Below, piece after piece: positions 29,033-37,368 of a stretch of 48,764 nt of DNA. The notes beneath the pieces were generated by a model. It saw only the letters and a list, made by a program, of their open reading frames with translations, had not been told where the DNA came from and made no database searches. Position numbers and translations under genes: made by a program. This DNA is from Chloroflexota bacterium. Lineage in GTDB: Bacteria; Chloroflexota; Dehalococcoidia; JACQUD01. Location of the stretch: positions 1-48,764 of the forward strand of contig JACQUD010000012.1 of NCBI GenBank assembly GCA_016210485.1, read 5' to 3'. How positions within the stretch are numbered: the first letter of the stretch is position 1; each line of letters starts with the position of its first letter.

Positions 29033-29097
29033 TCGATAAGCCATCGCTAATTCACGTGATTTACAGAGTTTCCCAACGCTCTCTGGGGAGGTATGAC

Positions 29098-30165
29098 ATG
29101 AAAATATTTGACTACATGGCCCAGTATGACTACGAGCAGGTGGTCCTCTGCACCGATAAGGCGGTGGGCCTCAGAGCCATCATCGCCATCCACGACACCA
29201 CCCTGGGCCCATCCCTGGGCGGGTGCCGAATGTGGCCCTATGCCTCCGAGGAAGAGGCCATCCTGGATGCCCTGCGCCTGGCCCGAGGCATGACCTATAA
29301 AAACGCCGCCGCCGGCCTGGACATGGGCGGGGGCAAGGCCACCATCATCGCTGACCCGGCTCGGGACAAGTCCGAGGCCCTGATGCGCGCCTTCGGTAGG
29401 TTCGTGGAGAGCCTGGGGGGACGCTACATCACCACCGAGGATGTGGGTGTGACCACCAAGGACATGGAGTTTATCAGCACCGAGACCTCCCATGTCGTCG
29501 GCCTGCCCCTGGCCCTGGGGGGCTCGGGGGACCCCTCTTCGGCCACCGCCGTGGGGCTCTTGGAGGCCATGAAGGTCTGCGCCCGGGAGGCCTGGGGCAG
29601 CGAGTCCCTTAAGGGCAAGACCGTGGCCGTCCAGGGGCTGGGCAAGGTGGCCACCTATCTCTTGCCTTACCTCCAGAAGGGAGGAGCCAAAGTGGTGGGT
29701 TGCGACGTTAGGCGAGAGGTGGCCCAAGGGCACAAGAAAGAGTATGCCATCGAGATCGTGCCCCCGGAGAAAATTTACGACGTCCCCTGCGATATCTTCT
29801 CCCCCTGCGCCCTGGGCGCTGTGCTCAACGACAAAACTATCCCCAGGTTGAAGTGCCGGATGGTAGTGGGTTGTGCCAACAACCAGCTCGCCGAGGACCG
29901 TCATGGTCAAGCGCTGATGGATAGAGGCATCCTTTATGCCCCTGACTTCATCGTCAACGCCGGAGGCGTCATCAATTTATCCTTCGAGTTCACCGGCTAC
30001 GACCCCGAGGCAGCCCTGGACAGGGTTAAGGGGATTTACCACACCATGGAGCAGGTGCTGGCCAGGGCCAAGTCTCAGGGCATCACCACCGCCCAGGCCG
30101 CCGACCTTCTGGCCGAGGAGAGGATCCAGTCAGTTCGCCACATAAAAAAACTCTACTTCGAATAG
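29098..30165 (+). CDS. Leucine dehydrogenase-type amino acid dehydrogenase
   Basis: 355 residues, the size of leucine/valine dehydrogenases and shorter than glutamate dehydrogenase. It reversibly deaminates a branched-chain amino acid with NAD. The catalytic lysines are in MTYKNAAAGLDMGGGKATI; TTEDVGVTTKDME follows; the Rossmann motif is VAVQGLGKVATYLL; NAGGVINL is near the end. Start chosen at 29098, seven bases behind GGGGAGG. A 17-bp hairpin lies 15 bases after the stop. Confidence 0.9.
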   Translation: MKIFDYMAQYDYEQVVLCTDKAVGLRAIIAIHDTTLGPSLGGCRMWPYASEEEAILDALRLARGMTYKNAAAGLDMGGGKATIIADPARDKSEALMRAFGRFVESLGGRYITTEDVGVTTKDMEFISTETSHVVGLPLALGGSGDPSSATAVGLLEAMKVCAREAWGSESLKGKTVAVQGLGKVATYLLPYLQKGGAKVVGCDVRREVAQGHKKEYAIEIVPPEKIYDVPCDIFSPCALGAVLNDKTIPRLKCRMVVGCANNQLAEDRHGQALMDRGILYAPDFIVNAGGVINLSFEFTGYDPEAALDRVKGIYHTMEQVLARAKSQGITTAQAADLLAEERIQSVRHIKKLYFE

Positions 30166-30180
30166 GAAATAAAGCCTCTA

Positions 30181-30217
30181 AAAGCTACGGCCTCCCCAGA
30201 GGGGAGGCCGTAGCTTT
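30181..30217. terminator. Bidirectional terminator between leucine dehydrogenase and the micro-gene pair
   Basis: Perfect 17-bp stem AAAGCTACGGCCTCCCC / GGGGAGGCCGTAGCTTT with an AGA loop. The T tail is short on the plus strand and CTTTTAG on the minus strand. It would end the dehydrogenase message and the micro-gene message coming from the other side. Confidence 0.75.
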
Positions 30218-30241
30218 CAATAACTGTGCGTCGGTTAAAGC

Positions 30242-30298
30242 CTACCTCTTCGGGGCGGGCTTGCCAGCGCCGGGCTTAGGGGCCTGCTTATAAAGCAT
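30242..30298 (-). CDS. Micro-gene 2: 18-residue basic peptide
   Basis: MLYKQAPKPGAGKPAPKR, stop TAG. It is preceded by AAGGAGGTGA with a seven-base gap to the ATG, an almost perfect complement of the 16S tail. The peptide resembles that of the upstream micro-gene: K-x-A-x-K-P early and KPAPK(R/K) at the end. The stop is 24 bases before the 17-bp hairpin, so the pair forms a compact unit. I know no family for it. It might bind RNA or the ribosome given its charge, but this is only a guess. The real gene could also be a leader or regulatory ORF. Confidence 0.55.
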   Translation of the reverse strand: MLYKQAPKPGAGKPAPKR

Positions 30299-30352
30299 TC
30301 TATTATCACCTCCTTCTTAAACATACGTCACGTAAGCATAAAGAGCCCTAAT

Positions 30353-30397
30353 TTACTTCTTCTTGGGAGCTGGCTTCGATGCCTTCTTGCAACGCAT
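30353..30397 (-). CDS. Micro-gene 1: 14-residue basic peptide
   Basis: MRCKKASKPAPKKK, stop TAA, seven basic residues of 14. Its ribosome binding site AAGGAGGTGATAGTATA has the same core and the same seven-base spacing as that of micro-gene 2, 54 bases further down. Such long Shine-Dalgarno sequences are rare in this window; most real genes have GGAGG or less. Two near-identical sites with related peptides argue for real, duplicated translation units. No clear promoter is seen upstream of 30420. Confidence 0.55.
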   Translation of the reverse strand: MRCKKASKPAPKKK

Positions 30398-30573
30398 TAT
30401 ACTATCACCTCCTTTTCATTTGATGGAAAAATTCTGGACTTTCAGAGCCAGCCTTTGGCTCAACCAAACCCTTTCCCCAAGACCACCACCCAGCGTCTCA
30501 GGCCACATCTTCCAGAGGAGAGCGATGCTGAGTAGAGGGGGGACGGCCATCGTAGGGGCATTAAAAAACTTCA

Positions 30574-30797: not shown

Positions 30798-33695
30798 CTA
30801 GTTGAAGCTCTCCTCCACCAGGCGGCGCTCCTCCCGGGTGAAGCCGTAGAGGTCATAGACCAGGTCATCTATCTCCCCGTCGGTGCGGGCGATGTCCCGC
30901 TCCATGTCCTCCCGCTCGCTCTGCGGGAGGGAGCTATCCGCCTTGCGCCTGTGGAACTCTAGCATCCGCTCCACCAGGGCCACCAGCCGGTCGTGCAGCG
31001 CCTTATCCTCCGGGTTGGCGAAGTCTATGCGGCGGATGGGGAGGCGCTTGAGAAACATGGTCTTGTATATGTAAAAACCACCCATCTTTGGCACCGTAAT
31101 ACGCTTGTAGTAGTATTCGAGCAGCTTGGAATTTAGCAATCCAACGACGAAGCGTTCATATCCAATACTTCTGTCCTTCAGAATGATGCTGCACACAGTA
31201 TCCATGTAAAATTGCTGCGCTGTGGACGAGGCGAACTTGGCACCTGCCGCTATTTCTTGGACAACTATCTTGCGAACGGCCTGCCTGCCGAAACCCCTCT
31301 CATTCCAGAGTTCATACCACGCCTTGTTGGAACGCTCAAAATAGCCACGACCACCTAGATCTGACTTGCGCCTGTAGAGATACTGGTATACTTTGGGATA
31401 AGCTTCCCTCAGCTCATCTTCGGATATGACAACGCTCTTGTCGTCAACGTCTTTGTATGGATAAATGAGAACGTGAGTTAGGGGTTCAAGAAAGTAGCGT
31501 TCTATATGCTTGCCTTGGATCGCCGGGTGAATGAGACTTTGTTCAAGCCCCAGTTTATGGGCCTCATTACGCAGGAGTAAGAAAACCGAATTTTCACCCG
31601 TCACTACTCCTTCATATATTCCCTCGGTAAGATCACCCAGAGGCGTTGCAGGCGCTGCCTCAATACGCTTAATCAGGCCTTGATGGTCTGGCGGTACGAA
31701 CACCCAACCGGAGCGAGAGAGGGCAGATTGCCTAACCTCATAGCCTCCCTTATCAATGCCACCCGGATAGTAAGCGATCGCATGTCCCTCGGGCTTTGTT
31801 TTCCTCAAAACGAGAATGCAGGTGTAATTGATCGCCCCCTCGAACACTTGACCATGCTCGAAGTCAACGATGGTATCTATTTGCACCTCATCTTGAAGGA
31901 ACTTGCGGAGAGCCCAACCGTGTTGGCGTTTCATGAAATTAGTCGGACATATGAACCCCAGAAGACCTCCCTCCTTAAGTAAACTGAGGCCTTTTTCTAT
32001 GAACGGCATGTACAAATCAAACCTACCTATGGCGCACCCATAATGGTCTCGGTAGAACCGCTTATCTTCTCCTATCCCTTGGAAGCCCAAATACGGCGGA
32101 TTCCCAATCACCACGTCGAAGCCGCCCCGCCTCATGATTTCGGGGAACCCCTGCCCCCAGTTGAAGGGGTGCTTGTCCCGCCAGGCATCCTTGAAGTAGG
32201 GCTTCAGCTCCGCCGCGCCTCCGGAGATTAGGGAGTTGCCCCGCCGGATGTTCTCCGCCAGGGAAGGCAGGGTCTCCCGGCGAGCCAGGGCCCGTAGCAA
32301 GAGATTCAGCCGGGCGATCTGCACCGCTTGGTCATCCAGGTCCACGCCGTAGATGTTTCCGGTCAGGATGGGCAGGCGGTCTTCCTGCGGAAGTTCACCA
32401 GGGCCTTTGCTACGGACGCGGGCGTGGTAGCGCAATAGCTCATCGTAGGCCCTGATGAGGAAGGAGCCGGAGCCGCAGGCGGGGTCGAGAATCTTCATAT
32501 GGAGGATTTCGTCGTGGGTGTGCTCCGCCAGGAAACGGCCCACCGTCTGGCGCACAATATAGTCCACCACCCATCGGGGGGTGTAGTAGATGCCCTGGGC
32601 CTTGCGGCGCTGAGGCATTTCTTCCAGCCTTATGGTTGGCCGTTCCATGCCCGGCAAAGTGGTCTGAGCCTGATTCAGGCGGGAGCGCTCCTTGACCACT
32701 TGGGCCACATGCCCCAGGTATTGCTCATAGATAGAGCCCAGGACATCGGCACCAATAGCCTTGAAGTCATAGCCGGCCATCTTCCCCGGGCGGTCATAAA
32801 GACCTTCAACGATCTGGCCTAGCAGCTTATCATCCACAAAGGTCTCATCCCATGGGTCATTAGACTTAGGGAAAAGGTCGCTATCGTAACTCTGGGCGAA
32901 ATCGTGAAAGATGCTGCGGAGGCGTTCAATGAGATGACCCTTGTGCCCCGAGCTTCGCCACTGGTGGAGCTCGGCCCGCAGGCGATTTTCCTCCAGCCCC
33001 CTATCCTCGGCGTTGCGGATGAAGATGAGGCGGTTGAGTAGATGCTGAATAAGCTCATCGGCCCGAATCCGTTCAGCTAGTGGCAGCCTGGACGTATCCT
33101 TGTACTTATACTGCAGGATTTGGCTGAAAAGCTCCTCCCGCCACTGCCTCAGTTGTTCAAAGAGGGACTTCTCTACCGGAATTTGGGGAAGCATGGCGCC
33201 GTAGGCTTGAGCTTCTTTTTGGAAAGCTCCGGAGGCGAAGGCCTCTTTGGAGAGCAGCCACAGCTTATCGAAGCTGCTCAGATAGTCATCCAGGGACAAA
33301 TTCAAGAACTGGCGCTCACTCTCGGCGTGAAAGACCATGAGGCGGGCGAAGTTGGTGAGGATGGCCCAGTTGACGCCCTTGTTGTAGGCGTAAGTGATGG
33401 CCTGTTTCTTGAAAGCGGGATCATTCAGGTCCCGATGGGGGGCCTTGGCTTCGACGATGAACCGGGTTACCCCGTTGAGGCGGAAGGTATAGTCCGCCCT
33501 ATCTCCGGCAATGGTTACCTCCAGGGAGACCTCTTCGGGATTGCGGACAGCCCAGCCCAGGGCCTCGAAAAGAGGTTCGATATAGCTAGCGGCTGTCTGC
33601 CGCTCGTTGAGACGAGGCCCGCGCTGAGTCTGTTGACGGAAACGCTCGACAAGCTCTTGGATGCTCTGGCGCGCTTCTTCCTGGCTAGTCACCAT
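30798..33695 (-). CDS. Single-chain restriction-modification enzyme (type IIG, Eco57I-like)
   Basis: 965 residues. The N-terminal nuclease domain has a PD-(D/E)xK pattern (D68 in RADYTF, E82-A-K84 in FIVEAK). A helical linker leads to an N6-adenine methyltransferase with motif I DPACGSGSF (404-412), GNIYGVDLDDQAV, and catalytic GNPPYLGF (NPPY 532-535). From about 700 a TaqI-like target-recognition domain follows (LIHPAIQGKHIERYFLEPL, YYKRITVPKMGGFYIYKTMFLKRLPI). One protein could both cut and methylate. All key residues are present, so it looks active. The recognition site cannot be read from sequence. It lies alone between palindromes and seems to be translated from a leaderless message. Confidence 0.9.
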   Translation of the reverse strand: MVTSQEEARQSIQELVERFRQQTQRGPRLNERQTAASYIEPLFEALGWAVRNPEEVSLEVTIAGDRADYTFRLNGVTRFIVEAKAPHRDLNDPAFKKQAITYAYNKGVNWAILTNFARLMVFHAESERQFLNLSLDDYLSSFDKLWLLSKEAFASGAFQKEAQAYGAMLPQIPVEKSLFEQLRQWREELFSQILQYKYKDTSRLPLAERIRADELIQHLLNRLIFIRNAEDRGLEENRLRAELHQWRSSGHKGHLIERLRSIFHDFAQSYDSDLFPKSNDPWDETFVDDKLLGQIVEGLYDRPGKMAGYDFKAIGADVLGSIYEQYLGHVAQVVKERSRLNQAQTTLPGMERPTIRLEEMPQRRKAQGIYYTPRWVVDYIVRQTVGRFLAEHTHDEILHMKILDPACGSGSFLIRAYDELLRYHARVRSKGPGELPQEDRLPILTGNIYGVDLDDQAVQIARLNLLLRALARRETLPSLAENIRRGNSLISGGAAELKPYFKDAWRDKHPFNWGQGFPEIMRRGGFDVVIGNPPYLGFQGIGEDKRFYRDHYGCAIGRFDLYMPFIEKGLSLLKEGGLLGFICPTNFMKRQHGWALRKFLQDEVQIDTIVDFEHGQVFEGAINYTCILVLRKTKPEGHAIAYYPGGIDKGGYEVRQSALSRSGWVFVPPDHQGLIKRIEAAPATPLGDLTEGIYEGVVTGENSVFLLLRNEAHKLGLEQSLIHPAIQGKHIERYFLEPLTHVLIYPYKDVDDKSVVISEDELREAYPKVYQYLYRRKSDLGGRGYFERSNKAWYELWNERGFGRQAVRKIVVQEIAAGAKFASSTAQQFYMDTVCSIILKDRSIGYERFVVGLLNSKLLEYYYKRITVPKMGGFYIYKTMFLKRLPIRRIDFANPEDKALHDRLVALVERMLEFHRRKADSSLPQSEREDMERDIARTDGEIDDLVYDLYGFTREERRLVEESFN

Positions 33696-33703
33696 TTGAG
33701 GAC

Positions 33704-33709
33704 ATTATA
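33704..33709 (-). promoter_or_regulatory. -10 box of the restriction-modification gene (leaderless)
   Basis: TATAAT on the minus strand ends eight bases before the ATG at 33695, so transcription should begin at or within a base or two of the start codon. No Shine-Dalgarno is present. The palindrome at 33706-33733 covers the upstream side of this box and the spacer, so a protein bound there would block the promoter. Confidence 0.5.
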
Positions 33710-33733
33710 CCCCAGGATTAATCCTGGGGTATA
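33706..33733. repeat. Perfect 28-base palindrome upstream of the restriction-modification gene
   Basis: TATACCCCAGGATT followed by AATCCTGGGGTATA. It could act as operator for the gene, as a recombination end, or as a second hairpin behind dnaK. One arm (ATACCCCAGGAT) recurs at 30734-30745. Confidence 0.75.
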
Positions 33734-33743
33734 GAAAACCGCA

Positions 33744-33766
33744 GGGGCCGCCCTTCGGGCGGCCCC
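33744..33766 (-). terminator. Terminator of the hrcA-grpE-dnaK operon
   Basis: GGGGCCGCCC / GGGCGGCCCC with a three-base loop, followed on the minus strand by TGCGGTTTTC. Located 14 bases after the dnaK stop. Confidence 0.7.
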
Positions 33767-33779
33767 ACGAATCTTTGCC

Positions 33780-35705
33780 TTATACTTCTCGGAACTCCCC
33801 CTCCACCGTCCCCTCGGGCGGCTTCTCCTGTGACGGCCCACTCTCGCCCCCGCCCGGGGGCGGCTCGGGGCCGCCCTGAGGCCCGCCCTGCTGCTGATAG
33901 ACAGAGGCCCCAATGCGCTGCATGGCCGCCGATAGCTCCTGGATAGCCCGCTGGAGCCGATCCAGGCCCCCACCCTGGAGGGCATCCCGTATGGCTTTCA
34001 CCTTGGCCTCCACATCCGACCTCACATCCGCAGGCACCTTGTCCCCCAGGTCGCGCAGAGTCTTCTCGGCAGTGTAGGCCAGGGTATCGGCGGTGTTGCG
34101 AGCCTCGGCCTCCTCCCGCCGCCGGCGGTCCTCATCGGCATGAAGCTCCGCCTCCTTCTGCATGCGCTCCACCTCATCCTTGGAGAGGCCGCTGGAGGCA
34201 GTGATGGTGATCTTCTGCTCCCGCCCCGTGGCCTTATCCTGGGCACGGACGTTGAGGATGCCGTTAGCGTCCAGGTCGAAGGTGACCTCGACCTGGGGCA
34301 TGCCCCGGGGGGCGGGGAGGATGCCATCCAGCATGAAACGGCCCAGAGTCTTGTTGTCCACAGCCATGGGGCGCTCTCCCTGCACCACGTGGATCTCCAC
34401 GCTGGACTGGCCATCCGAAGCGGTAGAGAAGATTTGGCTCTTGGAAGTGGGGATGGTGGTGTTGCGAGGGATGAGAGAGGTGGCCACCCCGCCCAGAGTC
34501 TCGATACCCAGGGTGAGGGGCGTTACGTCCAGCAGCAGGATGTCCTTCAGCTCCCCCTTGAGCACCCCGGCCTGGATGGCGGCGCCCATAGCCACCACCT
34601 CATCGGGGTTCACCCCCTTGTGAGGCTCCTTGCCGAAGAAGTCTCTCACCTTCTGCTGCACCAGGGGCATACGAGTCTGGCCGCCCACCAGGAGCACGGC
34701 GTTGATCTGGGCGGCAGCGATGCCGGCGTCGGTCAGGGCCTGCTGGCAAGGGCCCAGGGTCTTCTCCACCAGGTCGCCCACCAGCTGCTCTAGCTTGGCC
34801 CGACTGAGGGTGAAGTTGAGATGAAGGGGCCCCGAGGCCGAGGCAGTGATGAAGGGCAAGTTTATCTCGTCCTGAACCTTGGTGGAAAGCTCGATCTTGG
34901 CCTTCTCCGCAGCGTCCTTGAGGCGCTGCGTAGCCATGCGGTCCTGGCGCAGGTCTATGCCCTGCTCCCGCTTGAACTCGTCGCACAGCCACTCCACGAT
35001 GCGCCGGTCCAGGTCCTCCCCGCCCAAATGGGTGTCCCCGGCGGTGGACTTCACCTGAAAAGTGCCGCCCCCCAGCTCCAGGATGGAGATATCGAAGGTT
35101 CCACCGCCCAGGTCATAGACGGCGACGACCTCTTCGTTCTTCTTATCCTGGCCGTAGGCCAGGGCAGCGGCGGTGGGCTCGTTGACGATGCGCAGCACCT
35201 TGAGGCCAGCGATCTCCCCGGCGTCCTTGGTAGCCTGGCGCTGGCTGTCATTGAAGTAGGCAGGGACAGTGATGACCGCCTCGGTGACCTTATCCCCCAG
35301 ATAGGCCTCGGCGTCGGCCTTGAGCTTCTGAAGAATCATAGCCGAGATCTCGGGTGGGCTGTATTCCTTGCCCCCCATTGCCACCCGGACGTCCCCATTG
35401 GCAGCCCGAACGACCTTATAGCCTACCTTCCGGGCATCCTCCTCCACGGGCAGCTCCCGACCTGCGGGCTCGCCAAACTTGCGCCCCATGAAGCGCTTTA
35501 TCATATAGATGGTGTTATCTGGATTAGTGATAGCCTGGTGCTTGGCCACCTCCCCCACCACCCTCTCTCCGGAGCGGGTTACAGCCACCACCGAGGGGAC
35601 AAGACGACTGCCCTCGGCACTGGAGATGAGGACCGGCTCACCCCCTTCCAGGACAGCTATCTCGCTCATAGTGGTCCCCAGGTCTATTCCTACTGCTCTA
35701 GCCAT
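33780..35705 (-). CDS. dnaK: Chaperone DnaK (Hsp70)
   Basis: 641 residues, full length. ATPase domain: [61 protein letters not shown]; substrate domain: [16 protein letters not shown]-terminal lid and a Gly/Pro/Glu-rich tail. The phosphate-loop residue after GTT is methionine (M13) where most DnaKs have asparagine. The operon order hrcA-grpE-dnaK is the CIRCE type. dnaJ is not here. A dispersed 19-base repeat lies in the gap to grpE. Confidence 0.97.
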
Positions 35706-35748
35706 AGTTTACCTCCGCTACAAATCTGCTAATCTCATGGCACCGCTC

Positions 35749-35767
35749 TCCCTTCGACAGGCTCAGG
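35749..35767. repeat. 19-base dispersed repeat between grpE and dnaK
   Basis: TCCCTTCGACAGGCTCAGG; its exact complement lies inside hemC at 10201-10219. Confidence 0.7.
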
Positions 35768-35788
35768 GTAAGCGGAACCCTGATTCCG

Positions 35789-36346
35789 TTACATGGAGCT
35801 CGCCTCCGGCGGAGCCTCAGGTGCCCTGGCTGGCCCCTGACCCACAGCCACCAGGGCCGGCCGGAGGACTCGGCCCCGGACCTTATATCCCCTTTGCAGC
35901 TCAGCTACCACTTTCCCTTCCTCACCCTCGGCCTGCATCACCGCTTTGTGAAAATGGGGGTCGAAGTCTTCGCCCAAGGCCGGAATAGGCTCCACATCAT
36001 GGGACGATAAGATAGCCAGAAACTTCCGATATATGAGCTTCACCCCATCCACCCAGGTTAAGGCCACCAGTTGAGGCGGCACGGACATCAGTGCCCGCTC
36101 CAGGTCGTCCAGCACCGGCAACAGATCGAGAATGAATAAGCCTGCGGATATCTTGGCCCCTTCCTCTCGCTCCTCCTCCACCCGCCTCTTGTAGTTTATA
36201 AAATCCGCCTGGGCACGCTGCCAGCTGGCCAAATACTGCTGAGCCTTGCCTTTCTCTTCCTCCAGGGCGGCCTTAAGAGAGCTCGTATCCTCAACGACCT
36301 CGGCCTCCTCGGCAATAGGCTCCTGCTGCTCGGGTTCATCGAGCAT
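35789..36346 (-). CDS. grpE: Nucleotide exchange factor GrpE
   Basis: 185 residues. An acidic N-terminus (DEPEQQEPIAEEAEVVEDTS) and a long coiled coil (ALEEEKGKAQQYLASWQRAQADFINYKRRVEEE) are followed by the beta-wing domain: PALGEDFDPHFHKAVMQAEGEEGKVVAELQRGYKVRGRVLRPALVAVG (split here), which is the standard GrpE signature. It releases ADP from DnaK. Its ATG shares one base with the hrcA stop (TAATG). Confidence 0.95.
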   Translation of the reverse strand: MLDEPEQQEPIAEEAEVVEDTSSLKAALEEEKGKAQQYLASWQRAQADFINYKRRVEEEREEGAKISAGLFILDLLPVLDDLERALMSVPPQLVALTWVDGVKLIYRKFLAILSSHDVEPIPALGEDFDPHFHKAVMQAEGEEGKVVAELQRGYKVRGRVLRPALVAVGQGPARAPEAPPEASSM

Positions 36347-37368
36347 TATGATAACCCTCTCCCCATTAATTCTGAGACCAGCTCACTCATCACCTGAGAT
36401 AGATAGCGTATGGAACCGATGGTTCGGTCGTAGTCCATCCTGACAGGGCCCACCACGGCCAAGGCGCCCCGCAGGTTGCCGGAGATGCCGTAGGGGCTGA
36501 GCACCAGGCTACAATCTTGCAAGGCCTCCAATTGACTTTCTCGCCCAATAATTACCTGCACATCTTCCCCAGCCAGGGCCTGAAGGAGAAAGTTACGCAG
36601 CGCCCCGGCCTCCACCGCCGCCACCACCTGGGCGCCCCGGGAGCTCCGCCCGAACTCCGGCTGTCCCAGAATGAGACTGAACCCTTCCAAATAAGGCTCC
36701 TCAAACTCCCGGGCATCCTCTGTCAGCATAAGGGTCACCACAGATTGCCGAATTTGCTCCCCTAGCACCGGCAAGGGCAAGCTCAGGGACATGATTTCCT
36801 CGGCCGTAAGGTTTGCATAGGCGTTGTTCAAATCCTCCCCCAGGATGTTCAAGTCCAGCTGACTCACTGGCTCTTCCAAGGCCAGGAGCTGCTGCCTCAC
36901 ACTGGCTTCGCTTAAGACCAGCACCAGCAGGGTCATCAGGTCTTGCACAGATATTAGCTCCAGGCGCTTGAACCGGGATTGGCCGGATTTAGGCAAGGTA
37001 GCTAGGGCCAAATTGTGCGCCATATCGGACAGAATGGCTGCGGCCAGGCGTCCCCAGGCATCCAGCTCCCGCTCCACCTGGTGAAACTGGTGCCTTATGC
37101 GCATGCGTTCCTCAGGCAAGAGAGCTATATCCAGGGCCAGGGACTCCACATAGGAGCGGTAGCCCCTATCCGAGGGCACGGCGCCGGCAGAGTGGTGAGG
37201 GCGACCCACATAGCCCTCCCCCTCCAGCACAGCCACCTCGTTGCGGATGGTGGCCGAGCTGACCCCCAGATTGTATTTATGGGCCAGGCTCTCCGAGGAT
37301 ACGGGAGATGCGGTGAGAATATATTCTTGGATCAGGCTTCTGAGAATTTGCCCTCTTCTCTTTTGCAC
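36346..37368 (-). CDS. hrcA: Heat-shock repressor HrcA
   Basis: 340 residues from a GTG start with GAGG six bases ahead. The N-terminal winged helix (QILRSLIQEYILTASPVSSESLAHKYNLGVSSATIRNEVAVLEGEGYVGRPHHSAGAVPSDRGYRSYV, described in pieces) is classical HrcA; the GAF-like middle and C-terminal regions follow. It represses its own operon through the CIRCE element 14 bases upstream. Activity depends on GroEL in other bacteria. Confidence 0.96.
   Translation of the reverse strand: MQKRRGQILRSLIQEYILTASPVSSESLAHKYNLGVSSATIRNEVAVLEGEGYVGRPHHSAGAVPSDRGYRSYVESLALDIALLPEERMRIRHQFHQVERELDAWGRLAAAILSDMAHNLALATLPKSGQSRFKRLELISVQDLMTLLVLVLSEASVRQQLLALEEPVSQLDLNILGEDLNNAYANLTAEEIMSLSLPLPVLGEQIRQSVVTLMLTEDAREFEEPYLEGFSLILGQPEFGRSSRGAQVVAAVEAGALRNFLLQALAGEDVQVIIGRESQLEALQDCSLVLSPYGISGNLRGALAVVGPVRMDYDRTIGSIRYLSQVMSELVSELMGRGLS

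Follow-up and report, generated by a model that had tools for sequence, protein, structure and literature searches.

Lysine-rich tails, leader-controlled genes and small winged-helix repressors are the closest described relatives of the locus studied here. The KPAA-repeat tail of AlgP is histone H1-like, and in vitro DNA binding has been reported for peptides with KPAA repeats (PMC9239181). Attenuation is relieved through a leader ORF in genes sensing translation stress (PMC12121999, PMC9226507). In this study, we describe a locus of a Dehalococcoidia genome in which features of these systems appear side by side around two very small genes. Taken one by one, small proteins missed by annotation, H1-like tails and leader attenuators are all familiar; their combination in free-standing tandem genes for 11-30 residues is, as far as could be found, new.

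Structure of the microgene locus

The window, that is, the whole stretch of 48,764 nucleotides that was analysed, contains two microgenes on the minus strand (Table 1). The initial annotation had described two ATG frames seven bases behind identical Shine-Dalgarno (SD) sequences, and this was borne out to the base; the perfect 17-bp hairpin that it had placed 24 bases past the second stop was located as well. Both peptides, of 14 and 18 residues, are lysine/proline-rich. The SD sequence AAGGAGGTGA has exactly two copies in the 48.8-kb window, none besides those of the microgenes, and with one mismatch allowed it has 16 sites compared with 3.6 ± 2.1 expected. The microgene starts are spaced 99 nt apart and show 79% identity over the 43 nt compared.

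Table 1. Positions of the features of the microgene locus in the window.
Feature	Position	Strand	Remarks
Promoter -35 box, TTGACA	30734-30729	minus	Exact consensus, 17-bp spacer to -10 box
Promoter -10 box, TATTCT	30711-30706	minus	Promoter scores 10 of 12, reached by 5 of 100 shuffles
Operator palindrome, CATGAA-TATTAG-TTCATG	30691-30674		Predicted winged-helix regulator site
Candidate leader ORF, MNISSCFWVPGLGSPFHKHSMPYEKPIMGFSGVELWRSP	30690-30571	minus	Stop codon at hairpin foot; no SD; individual case uncertain
Terminator-like hairpin, putative attenuator	30609-30573	minus	17-nt arms, 88% complementary
SD 1, AAGGAGGTGA	30414-30405	minus	
Microgene 1 (ORF1), MRCKKASKPAPKKK	30397-30353	minus	Stop TAA; family-model E 3e-12
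SD 2, AAGGAGGTGA	30315-30306	minus	
Microgene 2 (ORF2), MLYKQAPKPGAGKPAPKR	30298-30242	minus	Stop TAG; family-model E 1e-11
Perfect inverted repeat, 17 bp	30217-30181		3-nt loop; terminator between convergent genes

The downstream hairpin also lies just beyond the 3' end of the ELFV-dehydrogenase gene (29056-30165, plus strand), which is convergent with the microgenes and the next gene after them; no same-strand gene follows them directly. On the upstream side, positions 30798-37368 hold an Eco57I-like methylase/restriction gene and then dnaK-grpE-hrcA. The microgene of another genome (L075, G027) likewise comes after grpE-dnaK.

A family of microgenes in Dehalococcoidia

A plain DNA search of 60 genomes of the same class found homologues only in G036, as two stand-alone genes (MAKKKPAKPAPKKK and MAKKPAGKPAPKKK). 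The pattern of SD, ATG and KPAPK gave 15 matches in 393 genomes of the class compared with 1 in the reversed control, in agreement with the earlier view that such a pair is unlikely by chance. Two of the 15 matches were judged false on reading; those in G199 and G031:C4 sit within ordinary reading frames and were rejected. The list was then widened by a sequence-only model and by synteny, the synteny calls being limited by the fragments of metagenome-assembled genomes. Matches of model R1 at E > 1e-3 were mostly chance or Lys/Ala-rich pieces of larger proteins (e.g., G094 and G201), and they were counted only if they had been read and were backed by SD, context or synteny.

The resulting family has approximately 39 microgenes of 11-30 codons, typically with the core KPAPKK. 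They come from about 20 genomes in about 15 families of Dehalococcoidia; the genome and family counts are lower bounds, because the genomes were sampled and the seed was biased. The relatives carry the same kind of SD and the same kind of peptide. Further members are MFKSKPPAKPAPKK, MKKPPAKPAPKK, MAKQPSKPAPKKK, MKKPAKPAPKKK, MVDKKPMAPAAKPGAPAAKPVKK and MEKRTVGPQKPGQQKPGQSKPDPTKPAPKR. The tandem layout recurs in other lineages: arrays of 2-3 units are present in seven genomes (the source genome, G023, G031, G044, G058, G105 and G346), mostly with about 100 nt between microgenes. A third microgene of the source genome lies at G000:C4 (MPVKKAAGKAAAKAKPATKKK). When 84,980 prokaryotic species were scanned with the strict pattern, 7 contigs were found, every one titled Dehalococcoidia or Chloroflexi. 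Three of the genomes with members (G097, G012 and G048) are apparently Dehalococcoides, so the family appears to reach that genus.

For six longer members, neither Pfam nor NCBIfam gave a match at E up to 10, and the two window peptides joined had no NCBIfam match, with the power of both searches limited by very short queries. No description of the family or of its expression was found in the open-access literature.

Some related ORFs were seen elsewhere. In the Chloroflexota family f116, which belongs to another class, a conserved micro-ORF such as MMAKKKAAKKPAKKAAKKTSKKK stands after GAAGGAGGTAATTGC (L172-L174, L178 and L180; G417, G622, G628, G477 and G575), and it is possibly a Lys/Ala-type counterpart. 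At about 1516 of L177 (G654), a 12-residue ORF, MPKKKAAKKKKH, stands after GGGAGGAGGTGATTACTCA, and a TTGACA box lies upstream of it. A viral contig (IMG/VR; L027, about 10873; L028, about 410) encodes MDYKKPAPKKPKKATATPKKGMMTPKKK after GGAGGAGGTGA; the one Lys-rich ORF of 28 residues seen on phage contigs is different and was left out of the family count. Some members contain Cys pairs or repeats, namely MAKAEPKKADKETKPAPKKGGCC (L019/L077, G105:C149), MAGCCGAKGGKQAAKPAPKTPKK (L015/L073, G039:C148) and MCTTCAAHAKKQPAKPAPGKK (L063, G058:C230), and it is possible that these bind metal. The first of them has a small Cys-containing ORF next downstream.

Selection on the peptide frames

The comparison covered ten pairs, either orthologues or tandem copies and not all independent, with 96.5 synonymous and 326.5 non-synonymous sites. 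The changes were 29.5 synonymous and 4.5 non-synonymous, respectively, which gives a pN/pS of 0.05 (binomial P about 1e-15). Three pairs had been found without KPAPK (two inferred-Dehalococcoides pairs and G010:C7/G046:C38), and when KPAPK was removed from the pairs found through it, 19 synonymous and 3 non-synonymous changes were left (P about 3e-10). Length differences among members are whole codons, so that the frames are kept. In the family comparison, the peptides vary less than the SD and spacers. The comparisons that the initial annotation had named, synonymous against non-synonymous change and frame conservation in relatives, came out in favour of coding. This computation supports purifying selection on the peptide frames, and we believe that the microgenes are almost certainly real translated genes. 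Homologues, kept frames and synonymous excess also support the suggestion that the locus is a compact operon for very small proteins overlooked by gene callers.

Predicted control by a winged-helix protein

A sigma-70-type promoter lies about 290 nt upstream of the microgenes. The transcript of about 250 bases ending at the hairpin that had been expected is probably too short, since a transcript from the best promoter would be about 520 nt, including a long leader. The promoter, the operator palindrome, the upstream hairpin and the candidate leader ORF were all absent from the initial annotation.

The predicted regulator is a small winged-helix (wHTH) protein of the Pfam type HTH_24/MarR_2, which matches no named regulator family at the curated cut-off. 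Its gene is divergent from the third microgene of the source genome, at C4, and from microgenes in 10 other genomes (G105, G058, G010, G046, G031, G346, G388, G097, G012 and G048); in G346 an extra small ORF stands between the two. Genomes of the G097 family that have this gene have one copy of it, and the source genome has one match. The promoters of wHTH genes carry CNTGAA-N6-TTCANG directly past the -10 box: 37.5% of 40 have at least 8 of 10 matches, compared with 1.2% of shuffled ones. A matrix from these promoters, built without those of the source genome, ranked the window palindrome first in the window (23.6 bits, with 12.5 for the runner-up); its seed consensus was fixed after that palindrome had been seen, which tempers the result, and the margin is large. 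The palindrome is the sole exact copy of CATGAA-N6-TTCATG in the assembly. The same operator type is common to the window promoter and to the regulator's own promoters, as in a wHTH regulon, and we consider it quite probable that the wHTH protein controls the microgenes in the window. Several members have no wHTH neighbour or operator. As several microgene promoters are without the site, wHTH control seems to extend to only part of the family.

Some wHTH loci differ from this layout. Divergent from the wHTH gene, L098 (G114) has an apparent decayed microgene, IAKKPSKSQTPKNNKK, with ATA at the expected start codon. At L086 (G306) and L106 (G008), which have no microgene, the promoter divergent from the wHTH gene drives other Lys/Pro-rich proteins that begin MFWRKKK or MFWKKK, and in G305 an ORF resembling these proteins comes after the microgene.

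The leader region

The leader hairpin of the window has a folding energy of about -30 kcal/mol, and 0 of 20 shuffles were as stable; TTTTTT follows at 30568-30563. For most microgenes that stand first in their array, a promoter of the TTGACA type lies about 50-310 nt upstream. A terminator-like hairpin was found between promoter and first SD in 14 of 17 leaders, each beating all 20 shuffles, and the median for the 17 was -17.7 kcal/mol compared with -6.6 kcal/mol in shuffles. The leader hairpin of G027 was equalled by 5 of 20 shuffles, and folding against shuffles gave no strong hairpin in the leaders of G039 and of G097, an inferred Dehalococcoides. In G105, G058, G010 and G046, the hairpin is not the terminator of an upstream gene, because the neighbour there is divergent.

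Thirteen of 15 leaders have an ORF with an ATG start that borders on the hairpin or runs into it, where about 9 would be expected (P 0.02). Mean coverage was 64 nt compared with 30 in shuffles, and 0 of 300 shuffles were as high. Twelve of these ORFs, whose starts were picked by eye, are Ser-rich (42 Ser compared with 23 expected; 0 of 2000 shuffles as high) and rich in Ser and Arg together (P 0.0025). Most leader ORFs are missing an SD, and we therefore regard the leader peptide as a good candidate only. A CGTAG motif that recurs in leaders was considered as an RNA-protein site; since many copies read in frame as Arg-Ser codons, it was tentatively taken as leader coding. We consider transcription attenuation at the leader somewhat more likely than not.

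Possible function of the peptides

The members contain about 20-50% Lys, plus Pro and Ala, and no hydrophobic stretch, a composition that points to polyanion binding. We propose that the wHTH protein would repress the operon and its own gene, and that the leader terminator would be an attenuator relieved by events on the Ser/Arg-rich leader ORF, such as ribosome stalling or translation stress. After release, strong SDs and multiple copies would allow a burst of polycationic, disordered Lys/Pro/Ala peptides, and these would bind polyanions (DNA, RNA, ribosomes or polyphosphate) like a detached tail of the histone H1 type. That the locus is a regulated operon with micropeptides as its products, under repressor and attenuator control, and that these polycationic peptides are made in abundance and probably attach to nucleic acid or some other polyanion, is a reading we hold at even strength for and against; for polyanion binding taken by itself, our confidence is likewise middling. 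A 14-residue peptide may be quickly degraded, which counts against this explanation. We offer more tentatively the wider idea of a class-wide system, in which tandem microgenes repressed by the wHTH protein and gated by a Ser/Arg leader would release H1-tail-like peptides that remodel the nucleoid, RNA or ribosomes under stress. If this were true, the peptides would rank with the shortest known proteins dedicated to nucleic-acid binding.

A rather unlikely alternative is that the peptides act on the translation machinery, so that stress sensed in the leader would lead them to bind, protect or tune ribosomes or rRNA and not DNA. Basic Pro-rich peptides are suited to RNA binding, and the layout of leader ORF and terminator is like that of genes sensing ribosome stalling; however, nothing ties the peptides directly to ribosomes, and the wHTH operator indicates a second, unrelated signal. 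The very strong repeated SDs and the hairpins at both ends might instead mean that the RNA is the functional product, as a small RNA or by trapping 30S subunits at its SD repeats, with the peptides as by-products. We find this improbable, as synonymous sites change while the amino acids stay, and the peptides are the less variable part. Rfam gave nothing at the gathering score in the window region, where there were sub-threshold chance matches only, and in 17 related loci it gave tRNAs, one unrelated fluoride riboswitch and nothing else.

The micro-ORFs could also be leader peptides controlling a downstream gene: an ArsB/CitM-like transporter gene lies downstream in G105 and in the inferred Dehalococcoides, and a small ORF does so in G305 and G105:C149. 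However, the next gene is convergent in the source genome and in G036 (L004), most members are directly trailed by a terminator, and no downstream gene is common to the loci, which makes this reading quite improbable. It is very improbable that the peptides are exported, or are signals or antimicrobials: short cationic peptides often have such roles, but the members show neither a signal sequence nor a hydrophobic face, and no export or modification gene is linked to the loci in common. Type I toxin peptides were also considered and rejected, as these call for a membrane-spanning hydrophobic stretch and all members are hydrophilic and basic. A chance or composition artefact of short ORFs in Lys/Pro/Ala-rich DNA, to which the weak model matches (E > 1e-3), many of them pieces of H1-like or other proteins, might point, is practically negligible given the pattern control, the single-lineage distribution, the homologues found via synteny and the pN/pS.

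Proteins of 11-18 residues are smaller than those annotation pipelines usually report, and evolutionary evidence of selection exists for few families as short. The present family occurs in tandem copies and carries two layers of apparent control. The apparent presence in cultivable Dehalococcoides, used in bioremediation, makes direct testing feasible. The microgenes would be a natural case of detached Lys/Pro tails and a clean system for the minimum useful protein size, and they would give an uncharacterised repressor a regulon.

Comparison with known systems

As far as could be found, no counterpart has been described for tandem peptides this short that are preceded by a repressor site and an apparent attenuator. 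Compared with the small winged-helix repressors of the MarR/ArsR kind, these loci have in common a small wHTH protein, a divergent promoter and a palindrome adjoining the -10 box; in contrast, microgenes are the apparent targets here, and the microgene-linked wHTH protein falls outside the named families at the curated cut-off. Leader-ORF attenuators (whiB7, vmlR, toiL and the leaders of amino-acid operons) likewise have a promoter, a short leader ORF, a terminator-like hairpin and a controlled gene, whereas the microgene loci control micropeptides and add a wHTH operator, and attenuation in them is putative. Histone-H1-like tails, such as the KPAA repeats of AlgP and PhaF and chlamydial Hc2, share with the family members a Lys/Pro/Ala-rich, low-complexity basic sequence, predicted disorder and high positive charge. 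They form the tails of proteins much longer than 100 residues, whereas the microgenes encode whole proteins of 11-30 residues, in tandem and with separate SDs, that match no curated family model.
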